The notes under the pieces were generated by a model that saw only the letters and a list, made by a program, of their open reading frames with translations, did not search any database and had not been told where the DNA came from. A stretch of 58,446 bases of DNA. Origin: Desulfatibacillum sp. (lineage in GTDB: Bacteria; Desulfobacterota; Desulfobacteria; Desulfobacterales; Desulfatibacillaceae). The stretch lies in NCBI GenBank assembly GCA_016342355.1, contig JAEINP010000034.1:1-58446 (forward strand). The letters are read 5' to 3'. A program made the position numbers and the translations under genes. Position 1 is the first letter of the stretch. Every line of letters begins with the position of its first letter. Positions 1,955-35,282 of this stretch are shown here, in pieces.

Positions 1955-3652
1955 ATGTCCGTCGGATTCCTTGGAGTTGCAGCCTGTGCACCTATCCTGC
2001 TTGCCCTTGTTTTAATGGTGTGGCTGCACTGGCCCGCCACCCGCGCCATGCCCATGGCATGGGCCGCATGCGCCCTGATAGCACTGGTTGTGTGGAAAAT
2101 GCCCTTGGGGTTTATCCTGGCAGCCACGTTAGGCGGTTTTGGAAACACACTCAACATCCTGATTATTATACTCGGGGCCATTGTGCTGCTGTTCTCTCTC
2201 AGGGAAAGCGGGGGCATGGAGACCATCAAGCAGGGCATCGGAAACCTGAGTGACGACAAACGCGTCCAGATCATACTTATCGCATTTTTATTCAGTGCGT
2301 TTTTGGAAGGCGCCGCAGGTTTTGGAACCCCGGCCGCCATTGCGGCTCCGCTGATGATCAACCTGGGATTTCCCGCCCTGGCCGCCGTGATGGCCTGCCT
2401 GATACTGAACTCGTTTTCCGTTACCTTTGGAGTGATCGGGGCAGTGGTCTGGTTTGGCCTGAAAAACCTGACGCCTCTGATTGACGGAGCCATATCCCAG
2501 GGAGTGGCTCCGGCTTCCATACCCAATGCCTGGGGATTTTTTGAGTTGGTGGGGCGCTGGGGTGCGGTTCTCAACATCGCGCCCATATTTGTATTGCCGC
2601 TGTTTGTGCTGTGCTTTGTCACCCGATATTTTGGGGTCAATCGTTCCTGGCGAGAAGGCCTGGGGGCATGGAAGATTTCACTGTTTGCCTCCACCTGCTT
2701 TGCTTTGGCCTATTTGTTTTTCGCCTTTGTCCTGGGGATTGAATTTCCCTCCCTGATGGGCGGGTTGATTGCCCTGGCTATGGTGGTCTTTGCCATTCGC
2801 AAACAATGGTTTATCCCACCCGAAACCTGGAGCTTCGGACCCAAGGAGCAATGGGAGGCGCATTGGATCGGGTCGATCGAGGTGCAAAGCGAAAACCACG
2901 TCCATGCCACCATGAGCCAGGCGCGGGCCTGGATGCCTTACGTCCTAATTGGATTGCTTTTGCTGCTCACCCGATTATCCAGCCTGCCCTTTAAGTCCTG
3001 GGTGATGGGGGTGGACATTAGCGTTTCGGCCATATTGGGGTACGAGTCGGTCCAGTTCAGCATCAAACCTTTGTATCTGCCGGGGATCATGCCCTTCATG
3101 CTGGTGGCCCTGTTGATCGTTCCGTTGCATGGCATGTCCTGGAAAAAGGCGGGAGTTGCATGGGCCGACGCCTTCCGGAGAATCAAAGGGCCAGCCATCG
3201 CCCTGTTGTTTGCCGTGGCTCTGGTGGAGATTTTCAAGCAATCCGCGCACAATGCCATGGGTTATCCGTCCATGCCCTTATCCATGGCCAAGGCCACTGC
3301 GGATCTTGTTGGAGGGGCATGGCCTTTTTTCGCCTCCTTTATAGGCGCATTGGGCGCTTTCATTACCGGCAGCAACACGGTTTCCAATCTGCTTTTCAGC
3401 GAGTTTCAATATGGCTTGGCGGAACAACTGCATCTTTCCAGGCAGATCATCGTCGCCCTGCAATTGGTGGGCGGGTCCATGGGAAACATGGTTTGCATCC
3501 ATAACATTGTGGCTGCTTCGGCGGTTGTGGGATTGAGCGGGATGGAAGGGGCCATCATCAAACGGAACGTGGTTCCCATGCTGATCTACGGTCTGAGCGT
3601 GGGGTGCCTGGGTATGCTTTTCTGCTATGTGCTGTTTCCGGCGATTTTCTGA
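1955..3652 (+). CDS. lldP: L-lactate permease (LctP/LldP family)
   Basis: A 565-residue polytopic inner-membrane protein that imports lactate, a main electron donor for sulfate reducers, with H+ or Na+. Length and pattern fit the family (about 550 residues, 12 or more membrane segments). Family-like segments are FLEGAAGFGTPAAIAAPLMI near residue 110, GVIGAVVWFGL near 155 and GALGAFITGSNTVSNLLFS in the C-terminal third, where the GSN-N pattern is diagnostic. AGGAG at about 1941 sets the ATG at 1955. No lactate dehydrogenase or lactate-utilisation gene is adjacent, so the permease is encoded alone here. Glycolate or another 2-hydroxy acid is a possible alternative substrate. Confidence 0.9.
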   Translation: MSVGFLGVAACAPILLALVLMVWLHWPATRAMPMAWAACALIALVVWKMPLGFILAATLGGFGNTLNILIIILGAIVLLFSLRESGGMETIKQGIGNLSDDKRVQIILIAFLFSAFLEGAAGFGTPAAIAAPLMINLGFPALAAVMACLILNSFSVTFGVIGAVVWFGLKNLTPLIDGAISQGVAPASIPNAWGFFELVGRWGAVLNIAPIFVLPLFVLCFVTRYFGVNRSWREGLGAWKISLFASTCFALAYLFFAFVLGIEFPSLMGGLIALAMVVFAIRKQWFIPPETWSFGPKEQWEAHWIGSIEVQSENHVHATMSQARAWMPYVLIGLLLLLTRLSSLPFKSWVMGVDISVSAILGYESVQFSIKPLYLPGIMPFMLVALLIVPLHGMSWKKAGVAWADAFRRIKGPAIALLFAVALVEIFKQSAHNAMGYPSMPLSMAKATADLVGGAWPFFASFIGALGAFITGSNTVSNLLFSEFQYGLAEQLHLSRQIIVALQLVGGSMGNMVCIHNIVAASAVVGLSGMEGAIIKRNVVPMLIYGLSVGCLGMLFCYVLFPAIF

Positions 3653-33631: not shown

Positions 33632-33660
33632 TTGACAAGGTTCATTTGTGTTGCTACATT
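33632..33660 (+). promoter_or_regulatory. Consensus sigma-70 promoter of arsR
   Basis: TTGACA (33632-33637) and TACATT (33655-33660) with an ideal 17-base spacer. Initiation seven bases downstream falls on or next to the A of the ATG at 33667, so the message should be leaderless. Confidence 0.65.
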
Positions 33661-33675
33661 CGAAACATGTCGAAT
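33658..33675 (+). promoter_or_regulatory. ArsR operator site 1
   Basis: ATTCGAA-ACAT-GTCGAAT: 7-base arms with one mismatch. The site covers the end of the -10 box and the ATG, so bound repressor would block its own transcription. Same arms and spacing as site 2. Confidence 0.6.
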
Positions 33676-33996
33676 AGCCAAACAGACAGTGAGCTTAAAG
33701 AGATTGAAAAGGCGGCCCGCATGTTCAAGGCCCTTTCCAATCCCCACCGCCTGCGCATTTACAGGGCCTTGGCCTCCTGCGGAGGCGACGCTGTCATCAG
33801 CGAACCCCAGGATGAATTCCAGAACTGCCAAAGGGAGTTCGCCGAGGAACTGGGCTTGGCGCCCTCTACCGTGTCGCACCATTTCAAGGAACTACGGCAC
33901 GCCGGGCTGATCCACATGAAGCGGGAAGGCAAGAACGTAGTGGTATGGGTGGACGAAAAGATAGCCAGGGTCATGCTGGCTTTTTTTTCTTCCTGA
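33667..33996 (+). CDS. ArsR-family transcriptional repressor
   Basis: A 109-residue winged-helix repressor. MFKALSNPHRLRIYRALASC is the usual ArsR entry helix; LGLAPSTVSHHFKELRHAGL is the recognition helix, followed by the beta-wing (IHMKREGKNVVVWV). The classical metal box ELCVCDL is absent, with ISEPQDEFQNCQREFAEELG in its place, so a thiol- or redox-based signal is possible (Cys in ASCGGD and FQNCQ). ATG 33667 has no ribosome site, in keeping with a leaderless message from the promoter ending at 33660; ATG 33622 lies before that promoter. It is followed 57 bases later by a flavoprotein gene that has the same operator. Confidence 0.85.
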   Translation: MSNSQTDSELKEIEKAARMFKALSNPHRLRIYRALASCGGDAVISEPQDEFQNCQREFAEELGLAPSTVSHHFKELRHAGLIHMKREGKNVVVWVDEKIARVMLAFFSS

Positions 33997-34013
33997 TTTT
34001 TTTTCCTCTTTTA

Positions 34014-34031
34014 ATTCGAATAGTTTCGAAT
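34014..34031 (+). promoter_or_regulatory. ArsR operator site 2
   Basis: ATTCGAA-TAGT-TTCGAAT: perfect 7-base arms and a 4-base spacer, matching site 1 in arms and length. It lies 22 bases before the flavoprotein ATG, between T-rich tracts and the AAGGAG ribosome site. Confidence 0.65.
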
Positions 34032-34053
34032 CTTAAACTTCAAGGAGCATCAA

Positions 34054-34623
34054 ATGAAAGTCGTCACCGTCCTGGGTAGCCCCCGAAAAAAAGGAAACAG
34101 CAATACAATCGCCATGGCCTTCAATGAAACTGCCCAAAGCCTGGGTGCCGAGGTTCAAACCTTTTTCCTGAACAAAATGGATTATAAAGGGTGTCAGGGA
34201 TGCGGCGCCTGCAAGGGAAAGGTCGAACGCTGCGTGGTCCGGGACGACCTGACCCAGGTCCTGGACGCCATGTACGAGGCGGATATCGTAGTCGTGTCTT
34301 CGCCCGTCTATTTTTATGATGTGTCCGGCCAGTTGAAAAACTTTGTGGACAGGACCTTTTCCTTTTTTCACCCGGATTTCATGGAGCGCCCCGACCCTTC
34401 CAGGCTTCCTTCCGGTAAAAAAGGCCTGCTTATCCTGGCCCAGGGAGATACTCCGGAAGTCCACAAAGACATCCCCAAAAAATACGACACGTTCATGGCC
34501 TTCTGGGGACTTGCCCCGCGGCAGATTATCCGGGCCACGGATGTGAGCTTTGAAAGCACGGACGCAGACCGGCAGGTTTATGTGGATCAGGCCCGGTCCA
34601 TCGCCCGGGACTGGCTCTCCTAA
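34054..34623 (+). CDS. Flavodoxin-like NAD(P)H-dependent FMN reductase family protein
   Basis: A 189-residue flavoprotein of the iron-sulfur flavoprotein/NADPH-dependent FMN reductase type. VVTVLGSPRKKGNSNTIA is the FMN phosphate-binding loop, and CQGCGACKGKVERC in residues 47-65 resembles the compact Cys motif of archaeal-type iron-sulfur flavoproteins that bind a 4Fe-4S cluster, followed by DDLTQVLDAMYEADIVVVSSP and PVYFYDVSGQLKNFVDR. Likely an electron-transfer or oxygen-, quinone- or disulfide-reducing protein. AAGGAG before the ATG; under the ArsR operator at 34014. Confidence 0.88.
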   Translation: MKVVTVLGSPRKKGNSNTIAMAFNETAQSLGAEVQTFFLNKMDYKGCQGCGACKGKVERCVVRDDLTQVLDAMYEADIVVVSSPVYFYDVSGQLKNFVDRTFSFFHPDFMERPDPSRLPSGKKGLLILAQGDTPEVHKDIPKKYDTFMAFWGLAPRQIIRATDVSFESTDADRQVYVDQARSIARDWLS

Positions 34624-34724: not shown

Positions 34725-35087
34725 CTATCCAACCGGTCGGGTCGCCCACAGGCGGGAGTCTTCCAGGGCCTCGCTGCGATAATGCACCACGTCCTTGTAT
34801 TCCTGAGAGGTGACCATCTCGAAAAACGCCTTGATGGAAGGATACTCCACCAAAAGCACTCCGTCCCAGTCCCCGTCTCCGATTACCGGCATCAGGTATT
34901 TTCCGAAATAGAGCACACGGCCCCCGATTTTTGTCACAAGTTTAAGGGTGGCTTCGGAGTATTTGGCGTAGGATTCCTGGCCCCCGTCTTTGTTGAGCTT
35001 GAGCAGGTTCACCATGACAATCGGCCCTTCGTGATCCAACTGGGAGAGTTCCTTGAATTGCTTGCCGGTGGGTTCGATGAATGTCAT
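34725..35087 (-). CDS. DUF1330 family protein
   Basis: A 120-residue small protein of the dimeric alpha/beta-barrel superfamily (DUF1330). MVNLLKLNKDGGQESYAKYS and GGRVLYFGKYLMPVIGDGDW near the middle and LLVEYPSIKAFFEMVTSQEY match the ferredoxin-like fold repeated in this family. The function of the family is not known. Start ATG 35087 is fixed by AGGAGGAGACAC. The frame is open upstream to 35231 but that part has no ribosome site or family sequence. Monocistronic and convergent with the flavoprotein gene. Confidence 0.8.
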   Translation of the reverse strand: MTFIEPTGKQFKELSQLDHEGPIVMVNLLKLNKDGGQESYAKYSEATLKLVTKIGGRVLYFGKYLMPVIGDGDWDGVLLVEYPSIKAFFEMVTSQEYKDVVHYRSEALEDSRLWATRPVG

Positions 35088-35282
35088 GTGTCTCCTCCTA
35101 TGATCAGAAATTAGAGTTGCCCGTTCGCTGTCCAAGTGATGCTTGCATATTGTACCAAGGTTTGAGTAATTGCAAGTCCGGGTTATACGATCGTGAGGAA
35201 AATGCCCTATTGAAATTCTCCTTGGAGACAAACTCCGGTATTGAATTTATCAATATTTAATATTTTAAAAATAAATAGATTC

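Follow-up and report, generated by a model that had tools for sequence, protein, structure and literature searches.

A probably leaderless arsR gene between two operators: a candidate two-step switch conserved from Desulfatibacillum to other phyla

The arsR locus of Desulfatibacillum

We analyzed a 58,446-nt stretch of a Desulfatibacillum sp. contig (JAEINP010000034.1, positions 1 to 58,446; hereafter, the window), in which a gene for an ArsR/SmtB-type repressor is followed by a flavoprotein gene. The features of the locus are the following.

33632–33637, plus strand: −35 hexamer of arsR, TTGACA (at least 5/6 in 72/79 relatives)
33655–33660, plus strand: −10 hexamer, TACATT, with TG ahead of it (family version TATAnT)
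33658–33675, no strand: operator 1, ATTCGAAACATGTCGAAT, a palindrome with 1 mismatch that overlaps the last bases of the −10 and the arsR ATG
33667–33996, plus strand: arsR, ArsR/SmtB-type repressor of 109 aa, expected to be leaderless
33963–33989, plus strand: hairpin (33963–33981) plus T8, intrinsic-terminator-like, within the arsR coding end
33997–34004, plus strand: T8 tract, 11–18 nt 5′ of the TTCGA of operator 2 (gap 10 nt)
34014–34031, no strand: operator 2, the perfect palindrome ATTCGAATAGTTTCGAAT
34042–34047, plus strand: Shine–Dalgarno (SD)-like AAGGAG of the flavoprotein gene
34054–34623, plus strand: flavoprotein gene (FMN_red/Flavodoxin_2) with CX2CX2CX6C, the presumed target

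An earlier sequence-only reading of this DNA had claimed a perfect −35 and a near-consensus −10 for arsR. The −35 hexamer TTGACA (33632–33637) is indeed perfect and stands 17 nt from TACATT, but the description of the −10 was too generous: TACATT matches TATAAT at only 4/6 positions, and TATAnT is the form of the family. A33667 of the arsR ATG is the 7th base past the −10, the predicted transcription start coincides with the ATG, and no SD precedes this ATG in the window. A −10 one helical-turn-like step 5′ of the ATG with the SD absent is the sequence pattern of a leaderless mRNA. The architecture proposed earlier (ATG 7 nt past the −10, no SD) is thus backed by the sequence and by its conservation, and the arsR mRNA probably begins on the AUG, so that its translation would be leaderless.

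The same reading had placed a palindrome over the −10 end and ATG and a perfect copy ahead of the flavoprotein gene. Both are present, the first with one mismatch (33658–33675), the second perfect (34014–34031), and they are separated by 356 bp. That reading overlooked the T8 tract at 33997–34004 and the terminator-like hairpin at the end of arsR. The genome search that it called for returned the 18-base palindrome with 0–1 mismatch, in 5.26 Mb, only at operators 1 and 2. When up to three mismatches were allowed, the window held three palindromes against a chance mean of 2.96; because this count is at the chance level, similarity by itself is weak proof.

Eight places in the genome carry the palindrome with two mismatches, and three of them (C8, C101, and C54) were read. 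The C8 place sits within a 533-codon ORF, and the C101 place has neither an ArsR gene nor a listed 80-aa ORF across it. The C54 place belongs to an arsR paralogue 5′ of an ArsM gene, and its layout (TTGACT, 17 nt, CATAAT, and a palindrome across the ATG) is that of the window. There is a third ArsR gene, with DUF2087, in this genome (L127, 3330–3260, minus strand). The ATG TCG AAT TAA in its operator would encode just three codons, and the true ArsR start there likely lies downstream, after an SD; we count this case against our main model.

The repressor, its neighbors, and the signal

The window's ArsR matches the ArsR/SmtB models NF033788 (60.4 bits, cut-off 55) and PF01022 (35.8 bits, cut-off 22). 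Its predicted structure (pLDDT 81) has 6j05 as best Foldseek match (TMq 0.68), and the Foldseek matches are ordinary ArsR relatives. The usual ArsR metal box is ELCVCDL. The earlier claim that this box is missing was borne out, the corresponding stretch reading EFQNCQREF. Cysteines occur only at positions 38 and 54, placed by the predicted model just past helix 26–37 and within helix 48–62, respectively. In the family, four alignment columns (39, 40, 75, and 114) hold cysteine in 53, 54, 46, and 53 of 62 proteins. The window's protein retains only columns 39 and 75 (Cys38 and Cys54) and so lacks the arsenic-type set of four; by sequence, two of the four common cysteines appear to have been lost in its branch. 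In a tree from 108 columns, in which many forks stay open and bootstrap values are unsettled, the window grouped with L046 and L047 (96/86) and then with L059 and L075 (99/84).

The presumed target carries the CX2CX2C-type cysteine set that had been noted for it, as CX2CX2CX6C. We rejected an identification as ArsH, there being no ArsH model among the 6 NCBIfam matches of the protein (P0002) at E ≤0.01. A flavoprotein neighbor occurs in 5/69 loci including the window; in the window, L059, and L075 it was identified with family models, and in L046 and L047 by eye. In L046 and L047, the two nearest loci, an ABM monooxygenase gene lies 3′ of the flavoprotein gene, and in the window a DUF1330 gene (34725–35090, minus strand) is convergent with it.

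Across the family, clustering placed an ArsM-like gene in 35/69 stretches, and the two members tested both scored above the ArsM model cut-off. HgcA is encoded in 5/69 loci (four above the cut-off, one truncated and below it); the ArsR members with the composite start described below that lie ahead of hgcA are L069, L077, L078, L079, and L085. ArsP, LysE, and HlyD neighbors appeared once each. With its ArsM-like and HgcA neighbors, the family as a whole resembles metalloid sensors, and a metalloid is its likely signal. The sequence-only reading had suggested a redox or thiol signal and not arsenic. The window's branch retains two of the four cysteines and has ABM monooxygenase neighbors in its two nearest loci, which would be compatible with a quinone or a thiol; here the signal may be either a metalloid or a quinone/thiol.

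The composite start in relatives

Relatives gathered by protein similarity alone gave 67 loci, L109, L111, and L112 among them being weak or false. The window's arrangement, in which the operator reaches over the start codon (the composite start), was found in 58/67 loci with a strict pattern and in 60/67 with a looser anchor, L054 and L108 being the loci that escape the former. The strict pattern demands an ATG past a TTCGA-like word and demands neither the −35, the −10, nor the T-tract. It was also present in 27/30 loci of another set and in just 2/28 of a third, mostly made up of more distant ArsR proteins, where the two were the set's best matches beyond the window's own genome. When 63 rows were anchored at the start codon, with upstream columns unused for anchoring, the upstream TTCGA columns were conserved in 62, 62, 61, 59, and 61 rows; one of these rows is false (L112, which entered through a chance ATG and is left out of the 60).

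Among 79 unique genes (distinct proteins, which are not independent lineages), a −35 matching at least 5/6 was present in 72, against 2 in shuffles, and a −10 matching at least 5/6 in 53. SD-like words preceded 4/79 arsR genes vs. 51/73 downstream genes. The second codon reads TCG in 72/79, compared with 18% TCG among the 571 other Ser codons of the same genes, a figure that slightly favors TCG since some minor forms of the pattern request it; at codon 4, the third base is mostly T despite a changing residue. These two biases suggest that the first arsR codons are conserved as DNA, that is, as operator, the extended form of which is approximately TA-N3-TTCGA-N6-TCGAA-N3-T. Among the records are Thermodesulfobacteriota, Pseudomonadota, Bacillota, Chloroflexota, Calditrichota, Nitrospirota, and Acidobacteriota; since many of them derive from metagenome assemblies, some phylum assignments may be incorrect. 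A one-mismatch version of the composite-start pattern, which is too strict for counting the family, gave 14 matches in 11 of 395 phylum genomes vs. 4 in a reversed control.

Several variants were observed. L087 has ATA instead of ATG. L106, L107, and L110 (∼2940–3000) have palindrome-like words between the two promoter hexamers, and their start is a GTG that lies seven bases past the −10. A scan of IMG/VR viral contigs gave one match, an exact composite start (L158, 13506–13526). In many relatives, the TTG of the −35 (−36 from the ATG) is in frame with arsR and appears in the ORF lists as a potential start codon, so that automated gene calls may stretch arsR into its promoter.

A second operator and a phased T-tract behind arsR

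A palindrome with at most 1 mismatch lies between −40 and +1200 of the arsR stop in 23/62 loci, compared with 1/62 in equal upstream stretches and a shuffle mean of 1.8. In the larger set, 35/79 genes had 39 second sites inside +450, and removal of two intragenic sites (L047 at +103, L077 at +391) left 37 sites in 34 genes. By this criterion, 45/79 genes have no second site, which we count against the main model. The count leaves out sites past +450, such as that of L057 at +605, and L059, scored as lacking a site, has T9, 10 nt, and a two-mismatch palindrome. Two second sites stand in series in L068, L086, and L151. At the second sites of L070, L071, and L122, an extra TCGAA half-site follows 3 bases on (TCGAA-N3-TCGAA), and TCGA likewise follows many first operators.

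Aligned on the palindrome, the second sites have one other strongly conserved part, a T-tract. Five or all six of the bases from −16 to −11 are T in 33/37 sites, and in 26/30 of the copies with diverged flanks; the tract carries 1.64 bits per base vs. 0.12 in the flank. A mirrored A-tract was found in only 4/37, making the tract one-sided. In a sliding-window test, 18/22 sites scored at the T-tract position and at most 5/22 anywhere from −55 to −20. T-runs of at least 5 within 60 nt of the arsR stop occurred in 29/34 genes with a second site and in 8/44 without one, and any such run in 40 nt in 11/62 first sites. Across 194 genomes, the pattern T6-N9-11-operator gave 28 distinct places, compared with 5 for the reversed pattern; 20 lie behind an ArsR ORF, 4 at first operators (assigned from letters), and 4 are unrelated. 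Four of the 37 second sites (L019, L048, L050, and L081) lack the tract. Some of these carry a AAAAAAATTT stretch in its place, which would make a poorer U-tract; both observations are counted against the main model.

Proposed mechanism and alternatives

Our main reading, to which we assign a probability of about 0.5, is that arsR is an autoregulated, probably leaderless repressor gene with two operators and a roadblock at operator 2. The two-site circuit anticipated by the sequence-only reading accords with the sequence and with the conserved arrangement in relatives, and with relatives in several phyla it looks like a conserved two-step switch. An ArsR dimer on operator 1, a site that reaches from the last bases of the −10 across the predicted transcription start and the ATG, would block initiation. 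RNA escaping this block would begin on the AUG and be translated leaderless. A polymerase leaking past operator 1 would be halted by a dimer at operator 2, its active center then sitting in the T-tract 11–18 bp upstream; the weakness of the rU:dA hybrid there would favor release or backtracking. Without inducer, the locus would thus yield repressor-only RNA and little target, and an inducer would free both operators and permit read-through into the flavoprotein gene, or into arsM and others in relatives.

The T-tract might instead be a rigid or bent A-tract that aids binding at operator 2 or looping between operators 1 and 2, with no release at a roadblock. The AAAAAAATTT and AAATTTT variants in the T-tract position would suit such a role, as would the flanking of arsR by two operators and the paired second sites of L068, L086, and L151. 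Looping, however, needs no one-sided tract (33/37 vs. 4/37 mirrored), and since operator 1 has no T-tract and the tract is one-sided, it appears unneeded for binding as such. We consider this explanation unlikely.

The locus could also be an ordinary autoregulated arsR operon, the T-tract being the tail of the arsR terminator and a leader arising from an unseen promoter. The window has a hairpin plus T8 at 33963–33989 that is strong for its composition (z −4.09), a feature we count against the main model, and the B. subtilis arsR leader is 34 nt in the accessible text of PMC12607644. But the T-run of this hairpin lies 5′ of the arsR stop codon and is a different run from the phased T-tract. 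Such hairpins are not general among relatives: 10/22 sites had no stem directly 5′ of the phased T-tract, and only 2 of the 12 stems found at the 22 sites were within the best 5% of shuffles. We therefore rejected an intrinsic terminator as the general reading. T-runs track the second site (29/34 with, 8/44 without), and the block from promoter to ATG is conserved without SD words. An ordinary operon is accordingly quite improbable.

It is very unlikely that the target gene is transcribed from an additional, repressed promoter at site 2: an SD and start codon close behind many copies (uncounted) would fit a short leader and antisense −10-like hexamers of at least 5/6 occur in 8/37 sites, but forward hexamers of at least 5/6 in the site-1 register are found in 1/37 (−35) and 3/37 (−10), against 72/79 and 53/79 at site 1, the antisense −35 reaches 5/6 in just 3/37, and on these counts a promoter on either strand was rejected.

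A roadblock at operator 2 is the simplest reading of a site that is downstream of the arsR promoter, in the arsR read-through path, and promoterless, and that has precedents in E. coli and engineered circuits; we give it somewhat better than even odds. Release assisted by the T-tract is a more tentative proposal, and Mfd-driven release would be an alternative to it.

Discussion

The comparisons below draw on the accessible parts of the cited papers. As in the ArsR operons of E. coli and B. subtilis, an ArsR/SmtB repressor would govern its own gene plus downstream genes. The E. coli ArsR operator spans −64 to −40, however, whereas that of the window lies on the −10, start, and ATG; and the B. 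subtilis start is 34 nt ahead of the arsR ATG, whereas the predicted start in the window is on it (PMC12607644). In Cupriavidus metallidurans CH34, start mapping placed arsR among leaderless mRNAs (PMC7563307); the likeness is by description alone, and the accessible text makes no mention of an operator on that start codon. In Pseudodesulfovibrio mercurii ND132, an arsenic-responsive ArsR-like regulator was reported to control hgcAB (PMC10349881), a gene pairing comparable, by description alone, with the five HgcA loci of our 69. Links between ArsR and hgcAB have been reported (PMC7438021, PMC10349881), and arsR genes have also been found away from hgcAB (PMC12953829).

E. coli ArsR is listed as a roadblock (PMC10310618). 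In engineered circuits, a second ArsR site between arsR and the target cuts background (PMC3918153), and such a site has been termed a roadblock (PMC10310618); these circuits differ from ours in being man-made, and the accessible descriptions do not mention a phased T-tract. The Pol I terminator (Reb1/Nsi1, TTF1) offers a further likeness: polymerase stops in a T-rich element 15 bp ahead of the roadblock site (PMC12366685), and here the T-tract lies 11–18 bp ahead of the operator. That terminator is eukaryotic, and roadblock plus T-rich element release no RNA there without a hairpin (PMC12366685), whereas here a hairpin is not general and the roadblock would be ligand-controlled. Because Pol I release also needs the upstream hairpin, release by the T-tract only is weakened as an explanation. 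The loci, found in bacteria of several phyla, could conceivably contain a ligand-gated terminator without a general hairpin, which would end the transcript behind arsR much as the Pol I device does in eukaryotes and, with the ATG in operator 1, would yield a repressor-only leaderless RNA; we hold this view at less than even odds. In literature on leaderless or start-codon ArsR operators and on roadblock plus T-tract, neither composite was described, in a survey mainly of freely available papers.

For annotation, the in-frame TTG of the −35 in many arsR genes is a warning, as it can be mistaken for a start codon. If our reading is true, these loci would provide a natural, conserved model of leaderless translation coupled to autoregulation, in an ArsR family whose neighbors include arsenic- and mercury-methylation genes, and a bacterial model of termination that depends on a protein and takes place at a T-tract. 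They seem to match the second-site design of engineers with a phased T-tract added, an arrangement that could be copied into sensors.
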